Translations under genes and position numbers: made by a program
Shown here: piece after piece, positions 24,993-58,173 of the stretch
Numbering within the stretch: the stretch's first letter is position 1
Layout of the letters: each line of letters begins with the position of its first letter
Notes under the pieces: model-generated
What the model was told of the DNA's origin: nothing
Database searches by the model: none
The model's input: the letters and a program-made list of their open reading frames with translations, nothing else
Assembly: GCF_014642075.1 (NCBI RefSeq)
Contig: NZ_BMIK01000004.1
Location: forward strand, 62,001 to 126,000
DNA length: 64,000 bases
DNA from: Parapedobacter defluvii
Lineage (GTDB): Bacteria; Bacteroidota; Bacteroidia; Sphingobacteriales; Sphingobacteriaceae
Direction of reading: 5' to 3'

Positions 24993-26321
24993 TTAAAGCA
25001 GATCATTTGCCAGGTTGGCCAATTCACTCCGTTCACCCTTTTGTAACGTAACATGGGCATACAGGGGATGATTTTTCACATTCTCGATAAGGTAAGACAG
25101 CCCATTGCTTTCGGCATCAAGGTAGGGGGTATCGATTTGGTAGATATCACCTGTAAAGACGATTTTGGTGTGTTCACCCGCACGCGAAATGATGGTCTTG
25201 ATTTCATGCGGTGTCAGGTTCTGTGCCTCATCCACAATAAAGAAAATCTTGGTCAGCGTACGGCCCCGGATGAAAGCAAGCGGGGCGATGGCAATCTTTT
25301 CTGTTGCGATCAGCTCATCGATCTTTTCGAGCATCTTTTCATCGTCCGCATATTGTTCCTTGATAAAGCGGATGTTGTCCCATATAGGAGCCAAAAAAGG
25401 ATCGGTTTTGGATTTTGCATCTCCCGGCAGGAAACCGATTTCACGGTTGCTCAGCGGGATGACCGGCCGGGTGATGTAGATCTGTCGGTAGTTTTTGCGC
25501 TGCTCCAATGCACTTGCCAGCGCCAGCAAGGTCTTTCCCGTGCCGGCATTGCCCTGGATACTTACCAAGCGGATTGCCGGATCAAGCAACGCATGAAGTG
25601 CAAACGCCTGCTCGGGATTTCGCGGCTTGATCCGGAAAACAGGAGCCGTCGATACGGGCGTCAGGGTTTGCGAGCTTCTATGATAAAACGCATATAACGT
25701 CTTCCGGTTATGTCGGATGGCATAGAAATGGTTTGCTCCGATATGGTCCAGCGGTATATTCCCCACAGGTACGCTGGTTTTGTTCTTCAGCGTTTCAACG
25801 AGTTCATCGGGGAAATCGTTCCGTACCGTCTTACCGGTATAAAGCGCTTCCACGTTCTTGATCTTTCCGGTTTCATAATCCTCCGCAGGCAGGTTGAGTG
25901 CTTTAGCCTTCAAACGGAGGCAGATATCTTTGGATACCAGAACGACTTTCCGGTCCGGATTTTCTTCCATCAGAATGAGGGCCGCATTGATGATCTGGTG
26001 ATCGTACTTATCGTTGCCGAAAATCTTTTCCGCATCCATGCGCTGCGGTTTTCCCGAAAGGATCACCCGGAATTTACCCTTAGTCTGCCCATTGAGGTGT
26101 ACCCATTGGTTAATCAGCTTTTTGCGCGAAAGTTCGTCAATCAACCGGATAAAACCGCGTGCCTCAAAATTTCGGGTTTCATTGCCCCCCTTCATGTTGT
26201 CGAGCTCCTCCAACACCTGCACAGGAATCGCCACATCGTGCTCCTGAAAGTTGTTCAGCGCGTTGTGGTCATACAAAATGACAGATGTATCCAGAACAAA
26301 AATTTTACGGGATGCCGCCAT
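24993..26321 (-). CDS. PhoH-family ATPase with N-terminal PIN domain
   Basis: 442 residues. Residues 1-150 are a PIN nuclease-like domain (KIFVLDTSVILYDHNAL, with LEELDNMKGG and VVLVSKDICLRLKA). Residues 235-442 are the PhoH ATPase: IQGNAGTGKTLLALAS (Walker A, about 256), RPVIPLSNREIGFLPGD and FFIVDEAQNLTPHEIKTII (Walker B, about 362). PIN-PhoH proteins are RNA-acting helicase/nuclease candidates, related to mycobacterial PhoH2 and Bacillus YlaK. It is single. The 676-base gap upstream has no other gene. Confidence 0.92.
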   Translation of the reverse strand: MAASRKIFVLDTSVILYDHNALNNFQEHDVAIPVQVLEELDNMKGGNETRNFEARGFIRLIDELSRKKLINQWVHLNGQTKGKFRVILSGKPQRMDAEKIFGNDKYDHQIINAALILMEENPDRKVVLVSKDICLRLKAKALNLPAEDYETGKIKNVEALYTGKTVRNDFPDELVETLKNKTSVPVGNIPLDHIGANHFYAIRHNRKTLYAFYHRSSQTLTPVSTAPVFRIKPRNPEQAFALHALLDPAIRLVSIQGNAGTGKTLLALASALEQRKNYRQIYITRPVIPLSNREIGFLPGDAKSKTDPFLAPIWDNIRFIKEQYADDEKMLEKIDELIATEKIAIAPLAFIRGRTLTKIFFIVDEAQNLTPHEIKTIISRAGEHTKIVFTGDIYQIDTPYLDAESNGLSYLIENVKNHPLYAHVTLQKGERSELANLANDLL

Positions 26322-26997
26322 AGGTACCTGCTTGCTCCAATTGAAGACATAAAATTACTGTTTTTTCATTATTTCTAGGAGCGTAAACTAGAATTTAAGA
26401 AGAAAAGTGCAATACAGATCATCCGCATTTTGCGGTGCAGTGTGGATAATTATATCCACGTAAAATGTGTAAAACCTTATGCTTATGTTACGTAAAGATT
26501 ACTTAACCCAATGTTTCGGGACAAACAAAATGTGGATAACCCAAGCATTCTAGGTGGAAAACATGTTAATAAAATAACTCATTTTTTTCTTGGCACATAA
26601 GTATTTTGTTACTACCTTAGACAATATCAAGTACGAAGTTCTTTGAATCGCCCAAATGAGTATCCACAAACGAAGCAGTGCCAACAGGTAACTATTTCAG
26701 GATTACTTTAGCGATGGATTGGTTCCAAAGGTGTCATGCCGATGGAAGTTGCCAAATGCCCTGTAAAAGGGGTAGGCTCAATCAAAAACATACGCAGTGG
26801 GGTTGTTACTTTTCACTGTTCTCTACGGAGAAGGTATAAGGTAGCAAATGCATGATGGAATTGCGATGCCTTCCGTGCATACGCAAGGAACAAATGCCGA
26901 CAAAGATACTTGACTTGATACCTGAATTTTCAGCTACGGCTGTAATTAAGGTTAAAAACGGAAGGTTCAAATCGAAAGAAGAGGCCTTCCGTTTTTT
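26322..26997. other. 676-base gene-free region with DnaA-box-like sites
   Basis: No ORF of meaningful length or coding character on either strand. It holds two exact DnaA-box 9-mers TGTGGATAA (26451-26459 and 26531-26539), a facing ATATCCACG (26462-26470), and GTATCCACA (26660-26668). GTGGATA-ATTA-TATCCAC (26452-26469) is an exact inverted repeat. A possible plus-strand promoter, TTG-N20-TACCTTAG, lies at 26590-26620. The right half (26640-26940) is of higher GC and could be a non-coding RNA, but I match it to no known family. The region ends in a two-way terminator. Confidence 0.55.
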
Positions 26998-42652: not shown

Positions 42653-42961
42653 AGGTTGTCCGTTAGTCAAAGCAAGATAGAAAAATCTTTACCATTTTAC
42701 AAATAAACAGGTATAAATTACGTATAACTTTCGGAATATCAATTCAAAATAATTATCTACTGGTATATTTATGGTCATTTATTTATCGTGCTAAAGATGA
42801 CCAAAAGACCATAAAAAGACGACCAAAAGACGATAAAATTAGCTGTTAATTACCTAAATCACCCGCATTCTTATACTTGTTAATAAGAAAGCTTACACGG
42901 CATTTATCCGAAACAGATCAAATACCGAACCGATATATTTTCCGTATTTTTGCAGGGATTT
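42653..42961. other. AT-rich divergent intergenic region with repeats
   Basis: 309 bases between the DUF6266 pair (minus) and the NAD(P)-binding gene (plus). It has a 22-base direct repeat with core GACCAAAAGAC at 42799-42809 and 42821-42831, and an inverted repeat TTTATGGTC (42768-42776) / GACCATAAA (42807-42815). These could be regulator sites. A -7 box for the rightward gene is at 42945-42952. Confidence 0.6.
42945..42952 (+). promoter_or_regulatory. -7 box near the NAD(P)-binding gene start
   Basis: TATTTTTG ends 9 bases before ATG 42962. Confidence 0.5.
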
Positions 42962-45490: not shown

Positions 45491-45543
45491 TGTTCCACGT
45501 GGAACATCAACTCATAATTTAAATACACGTTCCACGTGGAACA
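45491..45543. promoter_or_regulatory. parS: Two parS-like centromere sites
   Basis: TGTTCCACGTGGAACA (45491-45506) is a perfect 16-base palindrome. CGTTCCACGTGGAACA (45528-45543) differs only in its first base. Both match the ParB/Noc-type parS consensus (TGTTTCACGTGAAACA in Bacillus, TGTTCCACGTGGAAC in Pseudomonas). They lie 37 bases apart between the ABC-F gene and mnmG. parA and parB are not in the window. parS sites normally cluster close to oriC. Confidence 0.88.
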
Positions 45544-45555
45544 AAAAAATAAAAG

Positions 45556-47415
45556 ATGTTTAATAAATATAACATTATTGTAGTAGGAGGTGGGCATGCG
45601 GGTTGCGAAGCTGCGGCTGCGGCTGCCAATTTAGGGTCGTCGGTATTGTTGATTACGATGAACATGGCCACCATTGCCCAAATGAGCTGTAATCCGGCTA
45701 TGGGCGGTGTAGCGAAAGGGCAAATTGTCCGGGAAATCGATGCAATGGGTGGTTACTCGGGGATTATTGCTGATAAAACGACTATTCAGTTTCGTATGTT
45801 GAACCGATCCAAAGGTCCAGCGATGTGGAGTCCACGTACACAGAATGACCGCATACGTTTTGCGGAAGAATGGCGCCTACAGCTTGAATCGTTGCCCAAT
45901 TTGGATATATGGCAGGATACAGTGAAAGAAATCGTTGTGAAAGACGGAAAAGCCTCGGGAGTAGTCACCTCACTGGGGATTATAATTGAAAGCGATGCGG
46001 TTATTTTAACGAACGGTACTTTTCTTAATGGAACCATTCACATCGGAGAGAAACGATTTGGAGGAGGCCGTACCGGTGAAAAGTCGGCCACCGGACTAAC
46101 CGAGCAATTGGTAAGTCTCGGTTTTGAGTCGGGACGCATGAAAACAGGTACGCCGCCCCGCGTAGACGGACGCAGCCTGAACTACTCCAAAATGGAAGAA
46201 CAGTGGGGAGATGACGAGCGGGGTAAATTCTCCTTCACCGATGTTGATCTTCCCATGGAACAACGTTGCTGCTGGATTACCTATACCAATGAGGCTGTTC
46301 ATGAGGCACTCAAGGAGGGCTTTGAAAAATCACCCATGTTTACCGGACGGATTAAGGGTCTTGGTCCGCGGTATTGCCCATCCATCGAAGATAAAATCAA
46401 TCGTTTTGCCGAACGCGACCGTCATCAAATATTCGTGGAACCGGAAGGGTGGAAGACGATTGAAATCTACGTCAATGGGTTTTCCACTTCATTACCCGAA
46501 GATGTGCAGCTAAAAGCCATGCGGTTGATACCCGGATTCGAAAATGCACGCATGTTCCGGCCTGGCTACGCAATCGAATACGACTATTTTCCACCCATGC
46601 AACTGGACTTGACGCTGGAAACTTTTCGGATAAAACACCTCTTTTTCGCAGGTCAGATCAATGGAACCACCGGATATGAAGAGGCCGCCAGCCAGGGATT
46701 TGTTGCAGGCGTAAACGCACACCAGCGGATCAACGACCTTCACGAGCTGATCCTAAAACGATCAGAATCGTATATCGGCGTGTTGATTGACGACCTGGTC
46801 ACCAAAGGAACCGAAGAACCGTACCGCATGTTTACCTCCCGGGCCGAGCATCGTCTTCTCCTTCGCCAAGATAACGCTGATGCGCGTTTAACTCCCATTG
46901 CCCATCAACTCGGCCTAGTATCCGACGAACGTCTGGAACAGGTAAAGCAGAAAGTAGAGGCAGCAGAGCGTCTCGTAGCCTACATGCGTAGCCAATCAGT
47001 CAGTGCTGAGGTCATCAATCCAGTATTGGATCAATTGAAATCAAGTCCTGTTTCTCAAAAGACCCGTCTTTTTCATATCCTTTCACGGCCGCAGGTTACA
47101 ATATATGACCTTGCCAAAGCCGATGAATCCTTCGCTGATTTGTTGTCGCAATACAGCAAAGAAGAAATTGAACAGGCGGAAATCAAAGTGAAGTACGATA
47201 GCTACTTTGAAAAGGAAATTGAAATCGTCAATAAGATGCGTCGAATGGAGGACCAGGAAATTAACCCCGACTTTAACTACTCAAACCTGGTCTCCCTTTC
47301 GAAAGAAGCACGTGAGAAATTAATTAAAGTAAAACCACGCACGTTGGGCCAAGCTTCACGGATTTCGGGCGTTTCTCCATCAGACATTTCGGTTTTAATG
47401 ATACATATGGGCTAA
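45556..47415 (+). CDS. mnmG: tRNA uridine-5-carboxymethylaminomethyl modification enzyme MnmG
   Basis: 619 residues, full length. With MnmE it installs carboxymethylaminomethyl groups at U34 of certain tRNAs, using FAD, NADH and methylene-THF. VVGGGHAGCEAAAAAANLG binds FAD; CNPAMGGVAKGQIVREIDA, GTFLNGTIHIG and GLGPRYCPSIEDKI are the MnmG signatures, and the helical C-terminal domain ends in SRISGVSPSDISVLMIHMG. Formerly gidA, a gene that lies next to oriC in many bacteria. The parS-like pair is immediately upstream. Confidence 0.97.
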   Translation: MFNKYNIIVVGGGHAGCEAAAAAANLGSSVLLITMNMATIAQMSCNPAMGGVAKGQIVREIDAMGGYSGIIADKTTIQFRMLNRSKGPAMWSPRTQNDRIRFAEEWRLQLESLPNLDIWQDTVKEIVVKDGKASGVVTSLGIIIESDAVILTNGTFLNGTIHIGEKRFGGGRTGEKSATGLTEQLVSLGFESGRMKTGTPPRVDGRSLNYSKMEEQWGDDERGKFSFTDVDLPMEQRCCWITYTNEAVHEALKEGFEKSPMFTGRIKGLGPRYCPSIEDKINRFAERDRHQIFVEPEGWKTIEIYVNGFSTSLPEDVQLKAMRLIPGFENARMFRPGYAIEYDYFPPMQLDLTLETFRIKHLFFAGQINGTTGYEEAASQGFVAGVNAHQRINDLHELILKRSESYIGVLIDDLVTKGTEEPYRMFTSRAEHRLLLRQDNADARLTPIAHQLGLVSDERLEQVKQKVEAAERLVAYMRSQSVSAEVINPVLDQLKSSPVSQKTRLFHILSRPQVTIYDLAKADESFADLLSQYSKEEIEQAEIKVKYDSYFEKEIEIVNKMRRMEDQEINPDFNYSNLVSLSKEAREKLIKVKPRTLGQASRISGVSPSDISVLMIHMG

Positions 47416-49717: not shown

Positions 49718-51304
49718 CTAAAATATAGTATTTACCAACTCTTTGGAACGTTCAGGGTAATCGGTAGTATAATGTAATCCACGGCTTTCTTTCCGAGCCA
49801 TTGCCGATTTGATTACCAGGTAAGCCACCTGAATTACATTTCTCAATTCGCATAATTTCACTGATAGCTTGGTATTTTTATAAAAACTTTCCGTTTCATC
49901 GTACAATAACCCCAGTCGGCGCATTGCGCGCTCCAGACGGAAGTCAGAGCGTACAATCCCCACATAATCGCTCATCACCTTCTGCGTCTCGCGCAAATTG
50001 TGGGTCACCAAAATATCCTCATTGGAAAGAACGGTATCCGAGTCGTCCCAATCCGGAATACTGCCGGACACCGAAATCGAATTCACCTGCGAAATAGAAT
50101 CCTCGTATATGCGATGCGCAAATACAGTTGCTTCAAGTAACGAGTTAGAAGCCAATCGATTCGCTCCGTGCAATCCGGTCGATGCACATTCCCCGCAAGC
50201 ATACAGATTCCGGATGGATGACCGGCCATACTCGTCTACCATAATTCCGCCACATAGGTAATGTGCGGCCGGAGTTACCGGTATGTAATCCCGTGACATG
50301 TCGATACCGATGGAAAGGCATTTCGCGTAAATGTTCGGAAAATGCTTTAAAATATCTTCCTTAGTTCGGTGGGTGATATCCAGAAAGACAAAATCATCGC
50401 CGGATTTCTTCATCTCGGAATCGATGGCCCGGGCCACAATATCCCTCGGTGCCAACGAACCGCGGCTATCGTATTCCTCCATAAACGGATCCCCGTTCTT
50501 TCTACGCAGCACTCCACCGAAACCCCTCACAGCCTCTGACACCAAAAAAGCCGGGTATTCCCCCGGATTATAAAGCGCGGTGGGATGAAACTGAATGAAC
50601 TCCATATTGCGTACCTTCCCCTTCGCACGGTACACCATCGCGATCCCGTCGCCCGTGGCAATCACTGGGTTTGTCGTACTCGCATACACATGACCCGCAC
50701 CTCCGGAAGCCATCACGGTCACTTTACTCAACACTTTTTCCACACGGTTATTTACCGTATTCAATACATAAACGCCGTAACAGGTAATATCGGTGGTGCT
50801 TTTATCCACAAACTTTCCCAGATGGTGCTGTGTAATCAGGTCGACGGCAAAATAATGCGTCAATACACTGATATTCGGGTTTTCGTGTACCTTCTCAAGC
50901 AGTGCGCGTTCAATCTCAAAGCCGGTCACATCTTTGTAGTGCAATACCCGGTGTTCCGAATGCCCGCCTTCGCGTGCCAAATCATACACCCCATCGGTGC
51001 GTTTATCAAAATGTGTCCCGTAATCAATGATCTCCTGGATCCGTTTCGGCCCTTCCCTAACAACGTTCTCCACAACTTTCACATCGCATAATCCGTCTCC
51101 AGCTATCAGTGTATCAGTAATATGTTTCTCAAACGAATCGGACTTATCCACAACCACCGCTACGCCGCCCTGTGCATACTTCGTATTTGACTCATCCTCG
51201 TTGGATTTGGTAATAATCATGACCTTACCGTGATTCGCTGCTTTCAATGCAAAGCTCAATCCGGCGATTCCGGACCCGATAACCAAGAAATCTATTTCAT
51301 GCAT
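49718..51304 (-). CDS. nadB: L-aspartate oxidase
   Basis: 528 residues from ATG 51304 (MHEIDFLVIGSGIAGLSFALKA, FAD-binding). First step of NAD synthesis: L-aspartate to iminoaspartate, which NadA uses. NTKYAQGGVAVV, REGGHSEHRVLH, MASGGAGHVYASTTNP and YACGECASTGLHGANRLASNSLLE are the family blocks. nadA is divergent across a 417-base AT-rich gap. Its coding sequence holds TTATCCACA at 50802 and 51144 and near-matches at 50736 and 51066; some of these simply encode Val-Asp-Lys or Val-Glu-Lys. Confidence 0.96.
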   Translation of the reverse strand: MHEIDFLVIGSGIAGLSFALKAANHGKVMIITKSNEDESNTKYAQGGVAVVVDKSDSFEKHITDTLIAGDGLCDVKVVENVVREGPKRIQEIIDYGTHFDKRTDGVYDLAREGGHSEHRVLHYKDVTGFEIERALLEKVHENPNISVLTHYFAVDLITQHHLGKFVDKSTTDITCYGVYVLNTVNNRVEKVLSKVTVMASGGAGHVYASTTNPVIATGDGIAMVYRAKGKVRNMEFIQFHPTALYNPGEYPAFLVSEAVRGFGGVLRRKNGDPFMEEYDSRGSLAPRDIVARAIDSEMKKSGDDFVFLDITHRTKEDILKHFPNIYAKCLSIGIDMSRDYIPVTPAAHYLCGGIMVDEYGRSSIRNLYACGECASTGLHGANRLASNSLLEATVFAHRIYEDSISQVNSISVSGSIPDWDDSDTVLSNEDILVTHNLRETQKVMSDYVGIVRSDFRLERAMRRLGLLYDETESFYKNTKLSVKLCELRNVIQVAYLVIKSAMARKESRGLHYTTDYPERSKELVNTIF

Positions 51305-51608
51305 AAACGGAAACAACCTAAAACCTGTGGATAACCTGTAGACTATCCGTTGAATAAAAATGAAAAGTCGGCAACTCGGGGATTTTATCTTTAATTCTGC
51401 ACATACCTCCGCATGAAATCACCCGATATACCGCACAATATTAACAAATACGATTCAATAAATAGTATACAAACGGGTATGGAAAAACATTTTTACAAAA
51501 ATAAAAATCACTGGAAATCAGTAATTATCGATTAAATTTATGTTAATAATATGTTAAAAGAAAAGTAAAACCGAAAAATCAAAATAAAATCATCCCATAT
51601 TTTTCACA
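50736..51608. other. oriC: Candidate chromosomal replication origin (DnaA-box cluster and AT-rich gap)
   Basis: DnaA-box 9-mers: TTTTCCACA 50736-50744 (relaxed), TTATCCACA 50802-50810 and 51144-51152 (exact), TTCTCCACA 51066-51074 (8 of 9), TGTGGATAA 51326-51334 (exact, reverse) and TTTTTCACA 51600-51608 (relaxed). The part from 51440 to 51720 is very AT-rich and could unwind. The region lies about 5-6 kb from the parS pair, and the plus strand changes from C-rich to G-rich around here. Caution: four of the boxes are within nadB codons. Confidence 0.55.
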
Positions 51609-51721
51609 AAACCAACACCCTAACAAACAATAAAATCATTTATATATAAAAGCTATTATTATAGATTGAGCCTGTTGGGATCTTGAAAACCGAATCAAAT
51701 GTTTAGTACCTTTGTATAATC
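51305..51721. other. 417-base AT-rich nadB-nadA intergenic region
   Basis: Divergent gap without ORF. It holds one exact DnaA box (51326-51334) near nadB, long A/T stretches (51480-51660) and, next to nadA, a promoter with TTG (51683-51685) and TACCTTTG (51707-51714). Confidence 0.85.
51707..51714 (+). promoter_or_regulatory. -7 box close to the nadA start
   Basis: TACCTTTG ends 7 bases before ATG 51722; TTG lies 21 bases upstream. Leaderless candidate. No NadR- or NrtR-type operator was recognised. Confidence 0.6.
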
Positions 51722-52717
51722 ATGGAAGCACTACTGACTGAACTAAACACAAAGGGCTATATCGATGAACCGATCGATCCTACGTTGGATCTGGTCGAGG
51801 AGATAAACAAACTCAAGAAAGAAAAAAATGCCGTGCTGCTGGCGCATTACTACCAGGAGCCGGAGATACAGGATATTGCCGACTACATTGGCGATAGCCT
51901 TGGGCTTTCGCAGCAGGCGGCCAAAACGGAGGCGGATGTCATCGTGTTTGCAGGGGTGCATTTCATGGCTGAAACTGCCAAGATCCTGTCTCCGCAAAAG
52001 AAAGTACTTCTTCCGGATCTGAAAGCCGGATGTTCGCTATCGGACAGCTGTCCGCCGCATCTGTTTGCGAAATTCAAAGAGAAATATCCGGATCATATTG
52101 CCATTACCTATGTGAATTGTACGGCTGAATTGAAAGCGCTTACGGATATTGTGTGTACGTCCAGCAATGCGGTACAGATTGTGGAAAGCTTGCCGAAAGA
52201 CCAAAAGATTATTTTCGGACCGGATAAGAACCTGGGGGATTACGTTAAAAAGAAGACAGGGCGTGATCTGGTACTTTGGAACGGTGCATGCATGGTGCAT
52301 GAAATTTTTTCACAGGAGCGCATTACTCAGTTAAGAAATGACTATCCGGAAGCCAAATTTATCGCGCACCCCGAATGTGAAAAAGAAATTTTAGACGCAG
52401 CTGATTACGTCGGTTCGACATCCGGATTACTGAAATACACGAAGGAGAACGACGCCAACGTGTTTATTGTGGCTACGGAGAGCGGTATTATCCATCAGAT
52501 GCAGAAAGCGAATCCGCAAAAGATATTCATACCGGCTCCGCCAAATAATGCGTGTGCCTGTAACGACTGTCCGTACATGAAGCTTAATACCCTGGAGAAG
52601 TTATATAATTGCATGAAATTTGAACTTCCGGAAGTGGATTTACCGGCGGATATCATTGAGCGGGCCAGACGGCCCATCGAGCGGATGTTGGAGATTTCAG
52701 AGCGATTGGGACTTTGA
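51722..52717 (+). CDS. nadA: Quinolinate synthase
   Basis: 331 residues. Condenses iminoaspartate with dihydroxyacetone phosphate to quinolinate using a [4Fe-4S] cluster. [65 protein letters not shown] and [14 protein letters not shown] carry the substrate- and cluster-binding residues. It pairs functionally with the divergent nadB. nadC is not in the window. Confidence 0.97.
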
Positions 52718-54750: not shown

Positions 54751-54758
54751 TATTTTTG
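54751..54758 (+). promoter_or_regulatory. -7 box of the toxin-antitoxin pair
   Basis: TATTTTTG, ending 9 bases before ATG 54768 and 17 bases after the inverted repeat. Confidence 0.5.
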
Positions 54759-54767
54759 TTAGGAATT

Positions 54768-55031
54768 ATGGAGGATGACACGATGAATACGAAACTCACG
54801 TTAACCATTGAACGATCGGTTATTGAAAAAGCAAAAAAATATGCGCGTAAAAGAGAAAGAAGTCTCTCTGATTTGATAACCAATTATTTGAAAGCATTGA
54901 CTAACGAAGAAACACCCCTTGAAGATGAATTAACGCCAACTGTTAAATCATTAAGAGGGTCATTTAAACTTCCCAAAAATTTCGATTATAAAAAGGAACT
55001 TGTGGATCGTCTATCAGAGAAATATTTGTGA
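54768..55031 (+). CDS. DUF6364-type antitoxin
   Basis: 87 residues (ATG 54768; ATG 54783 is an alternative that starts MNTKLTLTIERS). A ribbon-helix-helix-like N-terminus, KLTLTIERSVIEKAKKYARKRERSLSDLITNYLKAL, would bind DNA; the C-terminus (SLRGSFKLPKNFDYKKEL) would bind the toxin. It is AT-richer than its neighbours. The stop and the toxin ATG share one base, the usual coupling of such pairs. Confidence 0.8.
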   Translation: MEDDTMNTKLTLTIERSVIEKAKKYARKRERSLSDLITNYLKALTNEETPLEDELTPTVKSLRGSFKLPKNFDYKKELVDRLSEKYL

Positions 55032-55444
55032 TGGATAACGTTTTAATTGATACGGACGTCATTCTTGATTTCTTTTTTGATAGAGAACCTTTTTCGGCGG
55101 ATGCTTCAAAAATTCTTAGCCTGTGTGAAAAAGGGAACGTGATAGGCTTTGTAACACCCGTACTGATCAGCAATGTCTATTACTTACTCAGAAAAACGGC
55201 TAAACACGAAAAAGTCATTGCACATTTAAAAATGCTGTTGAATATCGTACATGTTGCTATGATAAGCAGACAAGTCGTTTTGGATGCGTTAAATTCTGAT
55301 TTTAAAGATTTTGAAGATGCTTTACAGAATTTTTCCGCCCAAAACGAAGAAGAAATCAAGATAATCGTTACCCGAAATATCAAAGATTATAAATCAAGTA
55401 ATTTATCTGTAATGACACCGGAAACCTACCTGAAAAGTCGCTGA
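55031..55444 (+). CDS. PIN-domain toxin (VapC-like)
   Basis: 137 residues from ATG 55031. NVLIDTDVILDFFFDREPF gives the first conserved Asp, LISNVYYLL the Asn/helix region, and DFKDFEDALQNFSAQ the Asp-Glu-Asp set of PIN endoribonucleases; IIVTRNIKDY is the last typical strand. Likely an RNase neutralised by the upstream antitoxin. It ends 5 bases before the convergent acnA stop. AT-rich and probably a recent arrival. Confidence 0.85.
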   Translation: MDNVLIDTDVILDFFFDREPFSADASKILSLCEKGNVIGFVTPVLISNVYYLLRKTAKHEKVIAHLKMLLNIVHVAMISRQVVLDALNSDFKDFEDALQNFSAQNEEEIKIIVTRNIKDYKSSNLSVMTPETYLKSR

Positions 55445-55449
55445 ATTAC

Positions 55450-58173
55450 CTACTTCTTCAAAAATCCCCGTAACACATATTGCAAGATACCCCCGTGCTG
55501 GTAATATTCAATTTCAATGGCCGAATCAAATCTTGCTTTTGATTGGAAAGTTACCGTTTGTCCATTGGATTTTGTAGCGACGACCTCAAGCAGTTTATGT
55601 GGTTTCAGACCCTCGGAAATACCATGGATCGTAAACTGTTCCGTACCGTCCAAACCCAGGGACTCTGCGTTTTCTCCTGCCGGAAATTCGAGGGGAATGA
55701 CACCCATACCTACCAGGTTGCTCCGGTGTATGCGTTCAAAACTTTCCGCAATCACTGCTTTTATTCCCAATAGATTAGCACCTTTTGCCGCCCAATCGCG
55801 TGAGGAACCGCTTCCGTATTCTTTTCCCGCCAATACAATCAAAGGTGTTTGGTTCTCGGCATATTTCATTGCTGCGTCGTACACCGAAAGTGTTTCACCC
55901 GTGGGAAAGTAGGTGGTGTATCCACCTTCTTTTTCGGTAATCCGGTTCCGGATGCGCACATTGGCAAAGGTACCCCGCATCATCACTTCGTGGTTTCCAC
56001 GGCGTGATCCGTACGAATTAAAGTCCTTGGGATCCACGCCCTTTGAAATGAGGTATCGGCCTGCGGCAGAATCGGGTTTAAACGACCCGGCCGGTGAAAT
56101 GTGGTCGGTCGTAACTGAATCGCCCAAGTATAAGAGGACCTTGGCGTTGTTTATATCCTGCGCGGGCACCGGTTCGCTGCTTATATTTTTGAAGAAAGGA
56201 GCTTCCTGTACATAGGTGGATTGCTCGTTCCATTCAAAATTTTTGCCCTGCGGGGCTGTCAGTTTTTTCCAGTCGTCGCCACCGTCAAAAATAACGTCAT
56301 ATACCTCTTTGAAGTCGGATGTACGCATGCATTGATTGATGGTATCGACGATTTCCTGCTGCGTAGGCCAGATATCACGCAGGTAAACCGGATTGCCATT
56401 GGGATCGTAACTCAGGGGATCGTTGAGCAGGTCCACATCCACGCGGCCAACCAATGCATAGGCAACGACGAGCATCGGTGACATGAGGAAATTCATTTTT
56501 ACCTGGGGATGTACACGGGCTTCGAAATTCCGGTTGCCCGACAGGACAGAGGCAACCACGAGGTCTCCTTTGTCCACCGCTTCCGCGATGTGCGGAGGCA
56601 GGGGTCCGCTGTTCCCGATGCAGGAGGTACACCCATACCCCACGGTGTGAAAACGCAGTGCCTCCAGGTCTTCCAGTAGATTGGCGCGCTGCAGGTATTC
56701 GGTCACGACTTTGGATCCTGGAGCCAAGCTGGTTTTTACCCAGGATTTGGTACGGATGCCTCGTGCTACGGCTTTCCGTGCCACGAGACCGGCACCCACC
56801 ATAACTGCCGGATTGGACGTGTTGGTACAACTCGTGATGGCGGCGATGACGATGCTGCCGTCACTCAATACATACTCCTGATTTTTGATCTTGATGCGTA
56901 CGGAACGGATGTCCTCGTTTTCAACTTTTATGGCCGAGTCAGTATGGCGGCTTTCGTAGGTAAATTCGCTGCCCGACCCACCTTCGTAGAGCCATGCTTG
57001 TTCCTGCCGTTGTTTAACGGGGACGTAGTTGCGGCGATATTCTTTTTCAAGGAGGAGCGAGAATTGCGACGCAAAATCCCTTACCAATATTTTATCCTGC
57101 GGCCGTTTCGGTCCGGATACTGTGGGTTCCAGTGTGTCCAGGTTCAGTTCCAGCACATCGGAATATTCGATGTGCTCATTGCCCGTGCGCCACAGTAAAT
57201 TATCCTTGCAATAGGTTTCCACCAGGGATATCTGTTCTTCCGAACGATTGGTGCGCCGCATGTATTCAAGCGTCTGGTTGTCGATGGGGAAATACGTAAC
57301 AGTGCAGCCAAACTCCGGCGACATATTGGAAATGGTGGCGCGGTCTGTAACGCTGAGGGAGTCCAAGGCGTCGCCAAATACTTCCACAAACTTTCCGACC
57401 ACGCCGTAGTCGCGCAACAGTTTGGTAATGGTGAGCACCATATCGGTTGCGGTGCAACCCGGAGGAATTTTTCCCGTCAGCTTCAGTCCGATGACCTGCG
57501 GGCAGGTGAAATAGATCGGTTGGCCGAGCATGGCTGCCTCGGCTTCGATACCCCCTACTCCCCAAGCAATGACGCCGATTCCGTTGACCATGGGCGTATG
57601 GGAATCGGTTCCCACCAACGTATCGGGAAAGGCCCATCCGTCGCGTGCAATGACGCCCTTTGCCAGGTATTCCAGGTTCACCTGGTGGCAGATACCCATA
57701 CCGGGAGGTACGACCGTGAAATTATCCAGTGCCTGCTGTCCCCATTTGAGCAGTTCATAACGTTCGGCATTGCGTTCGTACTCCAATCCGACGTTGTTCA
57801 GGTAGGCATAGTTAGTACCGAAATAATCGACCTGTACGGAGTGATCGATGACCAAATCAACGGGAATAGCCGGATTAATTTTACTTCCATCTCCGCCTTT
57901 CCGGATTACCTCTGCCCGGATGGAGGCCATGTCGACAACGGCCGGCACACCGGTGAAATCCTGCATCAGTACGCGGGCCGGTTTGAACGGTATTTCCTTG
58001 TCGGTTCCGGCGGGATTCCAATTTACCAATGTATCCAGGTGTTCGTCCGTGATTGCGAAGCCGTCATGGTTGCGCAAGACATTTTCGAGTAGTATGCGGA
58101 TTGAAAAAGGGAGCTTACCAATTTTCTGGTTTTCTTCTTCCAACTTTTTCAGCGAAGCTATTTGATAGTCCAT
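55450..58173 (-). CDS. acnA: Aconitate hydratase A
   Basis: 907 residues, the AcnA/IRP1 type. Isomerises citrate and isocitrate in the TCA cycle via a [4Fe-4S] cluster. AITSCTNTSNPAVMVGAGLVARKA and FHTVGYGCTSCIGNSGPL supply the three cluster cysteines; GTDSHTPMVNGIGVIAWGVGG, LAGKEYGSGSSRDWAAKG and SFERIHRSNLVGMGVIPL line the active site. Single gene; I saw no promoter matching the consensus. Confidence 0.97.
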   Translation of the reverse strand: MDYQIASLKKLEEENQKIGKLPFSIRILLENVLRNHDGFAITDEHLDTLVNWNPAGTDKEIPFKPARVLMQDFTGVPAVVDMASIRAEVIRKGGDGSKINPAIPVDLVIDHSVQVDYFGTNYAYLNNVGLEYERNAERYELLKWGQQALDNFTVVPPGMGICHQVNLEYLAKGVIARDGWAFPDTLVGTDSHTPMVNGIGVIAWGVGGIEAEAAMLGQPIYFTCPQVIGLKLTGKIPPGCTATDMVLTITKLLRDYGVVGKFVEVFGDALDSLSVTDRATISNMSPEFGCTVTYFPIDNQTLEYMRRTNRSEEQISLVETYCKDNLLWRTGNEHIEYSDVLELNLDTLEPTVSGPKRPQDKILVRDFASQFSLLLEKEYRRNYVPVKQRQEQAWLYEGGSGSEFTYESRHTDSAIKVENEDIRSVRIKIKNQEYVLSDGSIVIAAITSCTNTSNPAVMVGAGLVARKAVARGIRTKSWVKTSLAPGSKVVTEYLQRANLLEDLEALRFHTVGYGCTSCIGNSGPLPPHIAEAVDKGDLVVASVLSGNRNFEARVHPQVKMNFLMSPMLVVAYALVGRVDVDLLNDPLSYDPNGNPVYLRDIWPTQQEIVDTINQCMRTSDFKEVYDVIFDGGDDWKKLTAPQGKNFEWNEQSTYVQEAPFFKNISSEPVPAQDINNAKVLLYLGDSVTTDHISPAGSFKPDSAAGRYLISKGVDPKDFNSYGSRRGNHEVMMRGTFANVRIRNRITEKEGGYTTYFPTGETLSVYDAAMKYAENQTPLIVLAGKEYGSGSSRDWAAKGANLLGIKAVIAESFERIHRSNLVGMGVIPLEFPAGENAESLGLDGTEQFTIHGISEGLKPHKLLEVVATKSNGQTVTFQSKARFDSAIEIEYYQHGGILQYVLRGFLKK

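Follow-up and report, generated by a model that had tools for sequence, protein, structure and literature searches.

The nadB-nadA locus and its DnaA boxes

The window analyzed here is a stretch of 64,000 nucleotides from the draft assembly of Parapedobacter defluvii (5.80 Mb in 66 contigs), and it corresponds to C4:62001-126000. The genes for L-aspartate oxidase (nadB) and quinolinate synthase (nadA) are found divergently arranged in its right part, separated by an AT-rich gap (Table 1). The NadB protein shares 94% identity with its counterpart in Parapedobacter indicus RK1 and 89% with those of two other Parapedobacter species. The nadB start codon is probably the ATG at 51304, and the DnaA box at 51326 is therefore likely to be intergenic, while the boxes located at 50736-51152 are coding.

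Table 1. Features of the nadB-nadA locus and its surroundings (positions refer to the window).
Feature	Position	Strand	Evidence or remark
parS TGTTCCACGTGGAACA, 0 mismatches	45491..45506 (C4:107491)		match to parS consensus
Second parS, one mismatch	45528..45543 (C4:107528)		match to parS consensus
mnmG (gidA)	45556..47415	+	TIGR00136, 813 bits, above cut-off; adjoins parS pair
nadB, L-aspartate oxidase	49718..51304	-	NF006567, 678.5 bits, above cut-off; boxes in first ~570 bp
DnaA box variant TTTTCCACA in nadB, Val-Glu-Lys, offset 560	50736..50744	+	one-mismatch scan
Exact DnaA box TTATCCACA, nadB offset 494 (Val-Asp-Lys)	50802..50810	+	exact-match scan
DnaA box variant TTCTCCACA in nadB, Val-Glu-Asn, offset 230	51066..51074	+	one-mismatch scan
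Exact DnaA box TTATCCACA, nadB offset 152 (Val-Asp-Lys)	51144..51152	+	exact-match scan
Gap between divergent nadB and nadA, proposed oriC core	51305..51721		gap conservation, contig skew minimum, low stability
Exact DnaA box TTATCCACA in gap	51326..51334	-	lies in conserved block (9 Parapedobacter genomes aligned)
Candidate DNA unwinding element, 300-bp segment of lowest predicted stability in the window	51437..51736		runs into nadA start
Two degenerate boxes in tandem, TGTTAATAA and TGTTAAAAG (spacing 11 bp)	51541..51560	-	alignments of relatives
Box variant TTTTTCACA, then conserved block ACCAACACCCTAACAAACAATAA	51600..51633	+	alignments of relatives; candidate edge of unwinding element
Candidate nadA promoter -7 element TACCTTTG	51707..51714	+	window sequence and alignments of relatives
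nadA, quinolinate synthase	51722..52717	+	NF006878, 476.7 bits, above cut-off

The initial annotation of this DNA had proposed a replication origin at the locus, based on three exact and three near or relaxed DnaA boxes together with an AT-rich stretch. All six boxes were recovered at the positions listed in Table 1, and its estimate that about 0.5 exact boxes would occur by chance agrees with a computed expectation of 0.55 for the window. Seven exact boxes were observed, a number reached by none of 100 shuffled sequences, and the four located away from nadB were found at 2565, 26441, 26531, and 37813. Allowing one mismatch resulted in a mild enrichment only, with 24 sites in the window compared to 15.2 expected, and 3 of 100 shuffles were as high. 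The entire draft genome contains 89 exact boxes (43 + 46 on the two strands), while the reversed motif used as control occurs 21 + 31 times. When the list of 89 was inspected by eye, the nadB triplet was the only case of three exact boxes within 1 kb.

The stretch 51440-51720, which had been described as AT-rich, is 76% AT. According to nearest-neighbour energies, predicted stability in the window reaches its lowest values within the gap for segments of 100, 200, and 300 bp, but a 60-bp segment at 47413 is less stable than any in the gap. The least stable 300 bp are on this prediction a candidate DNA unwinding element, and the block formed by TTTTTCACA and ACCAACACCCTAACAAACAATAA may represent its edge. 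A simple regular expression based on the DnaA-trio consensus matched 11 of 77 gaps from related genomes compared to a shuffled mean of 9.7, and had no match in the window. The DnaA-trio is not known to be a universal feature of oriC. As its count is close to that of the shuffles, unwinding may use another motif, for instance the conserved block at 51600-51633.

GC skew, parS, mnmG, and dnaA

The cumulative GC skew of the whole contig C4 (279,784 bases) has its minimum at window position 51637 (-1935), inside the nadB-nadA gap. The next-lowest value more than 5 kb away is -1811 at 42943. The curve drops to the bin containing the box cluster and climbs afterwards, with some wobbles. Four single-contig relatives were sampled for skew using 20 stretches of 20 kb each, corresponding to 7-10% of the chromosome. 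In G057 the sampled skew was negative up to 1.47 Mb, positive from there to about 4.2 Mb with one stretch close to zero, and then negative again; the local minimum, determined for the 40 kb surrounding nadB, was 442 bp from the nadB start. In G035 the sampled skew turned at 0.30-0.32 Mb, and the local minimum, again within 40 kb, was 520 bp from the nadB start. The skew of G014 was weak with a local minimum 14.8 kb from nadB, and that of G023 changed sign several times without marking nadB, possibly owing to rearrangement or misassembly. The proposal that the locus coincides with a skew minimum was therefore borne out by the gap on contig C4 and by nadB in G057 and G035, but neither by G014, where the minimum is weak and 15 kb off, nor by the scrambled skew of G023.

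The G:C counts made by hand in the initial annotation were correct for all five lines, and the line at 56521, reported to go the other way, does so (15:20). Genes at 10.6-42.7 kb had been described as almost all leftward, and this is the direction of 16 of the 19 long ORFs there. Between 42.7 and 51.3 kb four long ORFs run rightward and one leftward, while four run in each direction to the right of the gap. The long ORFs beside the gap are thus not aligned with the proposed replication forks, and gene direction there provides no support.

A parS-like pair had been noted 5-6 kb away, and both sites were found about 6 kb from the locus by comparison with the parS consensus. They are the only sites with at most one mismatch in the home genome, and five more with two mismatches are located on other contigs. 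Among six genomes of the family, four carried parS at most about 7 kb from nadB; the scan found no parS in G057 and only two distant one-mismatch sites in G023. In each of the six, mnmG and nadB were separated by 2.3-2.7 kb, measured between their nearest edges. The dnaA gene was 0.36-1.47 Mb from nadB in five of the six relatives (1.47 Mb in G057, 0.73 Mb in G035, 0.89 Mb in G056, 0.36 Mb in G045, and 1.0 Mb in G014 when the contig is treated as a circle), and only 11 kb from it in G023.

Outside the family, parS was found beside mnmG in five of the six genomes where both were sought. In G095, which belongs to another family, the skew turns in a broad zone at 1.26-1.40 Mb that contains both nadB and parS-mnmG, and parS-mnmG may hence be the older landmark. 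A further genome from another family carries seven parS sites with a spacing of about 99 bp (G094:C24:13202-13810).

These landmarks bear on the possibility that the boxes at nadB belong to a DnaA-regulated divergent promoter or to a titration site in the vicinity of the true oriC, which would itself be located elsewhere, for instance at dnaA or next to mnmG-parS around 43-45 kb. Such an arrangement would fit the presence of parS and mnmG at 45.5 kb and their pairing in other families, the lesser skew minimum at 42943, and the promoter-like element that nadA has of its own in the gap (TACCTTTG, which fits the Bacteroidetes -7 consensus TAnnTTTG). However, the skew minimum at 51637 exceeds the one at 42943 in depth, the local skew minima of G057 and G035 are at the nadB gap, and between 42 and 46 kb the one-mismatch scan for DnaA boxes yielded a single site, TTATCGACA. 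With a shallower skew minimum and a single near box, an origin at 43-45 kb was rejected. So was an origin at dnaA, which is located at 222 kb on contig C7 with the nearest exact box 26 kb off, on a contig that ends about 10 kb past the gene. We therefore consider an origin outside the nadB-nadA locus improbable.

Conservation of the boxes among relatives

For the comparison between genomes we used 80 named nadB loci, the best 80 of at least 513 confirmed loci; all counts for relatives in this paragraph and the next refer to these best 80. nadA was divergent from nadB in 77 of the 80 relatives. For 73 of these the gap between the two genes measured 398-512 bp, for the other four 601-1658 bp, and its AT content was 66-80% across all 77.

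Exact boxes counted in 250-bp bins accumulated around the nadB start, with 24, 10, 27, 31, 5, and 2 boxes in the six bins from -500 to +999, compared to an average of 0.16 for the bins beyond this range. The reversed motif did not occur in the six bins. Two control motifs carrying one swap each gave a single peak, of 10 in the bin -750 to -501 for TTATCACCA and of 9 in the bin -250 to -1 for TATTCCACA; any conserved sequence can give rise to such peaks. In the 76 gaps shorter than 700 bp we identified 31 exact boxes, spread over 20 gaps, compared to 0.2 in shuffled gaps, and 51 copies of TTWTCCACA, spread over 21 gaps, compared to 0.7. The relaxed motif TTWTNCACA occurred 78 times in these gaps compared to 10.6 in shuffles, and its three scrambled controls 31 times (10.8 in shuffles), 21 times (10.4), and 8 times (9.1). 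Since two of the three scrambled controls were high too, only the strict motif is informative in the gaps. The region from -520 to +620 of the nadB start contained an exact box in 54 of the 80 relatives and TTWTCCACA in 69, leaving 26 without an exact box and 11 without TTWTCCACA.

The location of the boxes differed between genera. They were mostly found in the gap in Sphingobacterium (12 loci) and mostly inside nadB in Pedobacter (42 loci) and Mucilaginibacter (10 loci), which suggests that the positions are common while the set in use shifts. Gaps were aligned for 9 and for 21 chosen sequences. Among nine Parapedobacter genomes the box at 51326 was itself variable, although the surrounding block was conserved, and the tandem TGTTAATAA/TGTTAAAAG aligned where some Sphingobacterium loci carry two exact boxes 11 bp apart. 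In G023, inspection by eye showed three boxes within 1 kb at nadB and nowhere else; pairs of exact boxes occur elsewhere than at nadB too in G057 and G014.

The initial annotation had cautioned that boxes inside nadB could be accidents of codon usage, as the box encodes Val-Asp-Lys. Elsewhere in these loci, long ORFs other than nadB used the spelling TGTGGANAA for 4 of 70 VDK, 9 of 153 VEK, 1 of 25 VDN, and 2 of 49 VEN tripeptides. In nadB, VDK was box-spelled in 27 of 63 relatives at offset 152, and spelled TGTGGANAA in 33 of 59 at offset 494, where 30 were exact boxes. VEK at offset 560 was box-spelled in 43 of 59 relatives, 37 of them as TTTTCCACA, and VEN at offset 230 in 12 of 12, most relatives carrying another tripeptide at this position. 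The box spelling at the three main Val-Asp/Glu-Lys sites thus amounts to 43-73%, compared to about 6% in other genes. In species where the tripeptide is displaced by one or two codons, boxes were found in 5 of 5 (offset 236), 1 of 11 (497), 5 of 5 (500), 0 of 10 (563), and 2 of 5 (566) cases. Fisher tests for the four main sites gave p-values from 2.6e-7 to 9e-23 with relatives counted as independent despite their shared ancestry.

Synonymous shuffling of 81 nadB genes in 200 rounds never reached the observed numbers in the first 620 bp, which contain 65 exact boxes (shuffle mean 16.4, maximum 32) and 121 copies of TTWTCCACA (shuffle maximum 40). The rest of nadB holds 3 exact boxes, approximately the 2.2 obtained by shuffling, and 3 copies of TTWTCCACA; the relaxed TTWTNCACA exceeds chance there too (32 compared to 10.1, maximum 20). 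Shuffled genes still yield exact boxes in the 5' part, so the NadB protein sequence favours them. Nevertheless, with twice the shuffle maximum observed in the first 620 bp and few boxes in the rest of the gene, with boxes in only 2 of 27 and 0 of 7 relatives at the later offsets 878 and 1208, and with the non-coding gap enriched in exact boxes as well, the explanation that Val-Asp-Lys and Val-Glu-Lys codons merely happen to spell boxes in AT-rich promoter surroundings is very improbable. The conservation check proposed in the initial annotation accordingly found boxes kept in place across relatives, beyond codon constraint.

For comparison outside the family we used 20 genomes that each represent a different family and gave a good match to nadB, taken from 39 genomes of the same class. 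No exact box was found within 900 bp of nadB in the 20 genomes, two of which had less than 900 bp of upstream DNA at the locus. A search with one peptide motif, which detected nadA at all in only two of the 20, revealed no divergent nadA. A nadB-linked origin throughout the class was therefore rejected, and the nadB-nadA position looks specific to Sphingobacteriaceae.

Interpretation of the locus and other observations in the window

An oriC combines DnaA boxes with an AT-rich unwinding element at the skew minimum. The box cluster, the skew turn on the contig, the low predicted stability, the link to parS, and the conservation among relatives all support the candidate origin put forward in the initial annotation, and we consider it highly probable that the nadB-nadA locus is the chromosomal origin, with DnaA binding, melting, and initiation predicted from sequence. 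Its mode of action looks ordinary. DnaA would occupy the high-affinity sites, namely the 51326 box and those in the 5' part of nadB, and the complex would then spread across the weaker boxes of the gap. The AT-rich stretch at about 51440-51720 would melt, presumably at or close to the candidate unwinding element, and the helicase would be loaded there, with two forks departing for bidirectional replication. ParB bound to the parS pair about 6 kb away could then separate the new origins. A more speculative extension, which we regard as possible but rather doubtful, is that nadB codons have been selected for DnaA binding, and that an orisome spanning an NAD gene could tie transcription of nadA and nadB, and the supply of NAD, to initiation.

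The proposed origin resembles oriC of Escherichia coli and Bacillus subtilis in its TTATCCACA-type boxes, the adjoining AT-rich unwinding stretch, and the proximity of mnmG (gidA) or parS. It differs from these in that the boxes are partly located in a metabolic gene, in that dnaA is distant in five of six relatives, and in a DnaA-trio count (11 of 77 gaps) similar to that of shuffled gaps (9.7). Two groups of boxes are also present in the bipartite oriC described for Epsilonproteobacteria (PMC5043019). There the groups flank dnaA, whereas here one is located in nadB and one in the gap. As stated in the Prevotella intermedia OMA14 paper with reference to DoriC, oriC of Bacteroidetes is commonly located far from dnaA (PMC4755523). 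The oriC of P. intermedia OMA14 likewise consists of a DnaA-box cluster at a GC-skew turn with a distant dnaA; the nadB-nadA neighbourhood and the codon-embedded boxes found here are not among the features named in the passages compared (PMC4755523). An origin distant from dnaA is thus of a known kind in Bacteroidetes, and what is added here is its address in the family and the boxes embedded in codons. The titles and abstract openings listed in literature searches contained no placement of oriC at nadA-nadB, and the one paper found to combine nadA, nadB, oriC, and dnaA concerns a Propionibacterium. DoriC may already list such sites; its predictions are described as not always accurate (PMC13342612).

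The locus provides a testable origin address for a large family, in which this proposed origin is usually far from dnaA and easily missed. Some single-contig records begin at dnaA; in G057 dnaA is found at about 1 kb and nadB at 1.47 Mb. The position of the origin underlies growth-rate estimates from read depth, studies of strand bias, and the construction of shuttle vectors. Boxes retained in synonymous codons would in addition illustrate clearly how a gene can carry information for replication.

Two of the exact DnaA boxes outside the locus, 90 bp apart at 26441-26539, are located upstream of a PhoH-like gene with a PIN domain (24993-26321, minus strand). In the corresponding region an exact box was found in six of nine Parapedobacter loci and box-like sites in eight of nine, L268 having none. 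Box-like sites upstream of phoH were present in five of five Parapedobacter loci compared to 1 of 14 loci from other genera. They are possibly a genus-level DnaA-regulated promoter or titration site. Next to them, 100-150 bp of the non-coding stretch at about 26552-26700 were matched at 77-89% identity by seven of eight further Parapedobacter genomes, while the eighth was 73% identical over the whole query. This stretch had no Rfam or tRNA match and is possibly a novel RNA or leader. On the other side of the nadB-nadA locus, the window contains a gene pair at 54756-55444 encoding a DUF6364 protein and a PIN_3 domain protein, which resembles a toxin-antitoxin pair.
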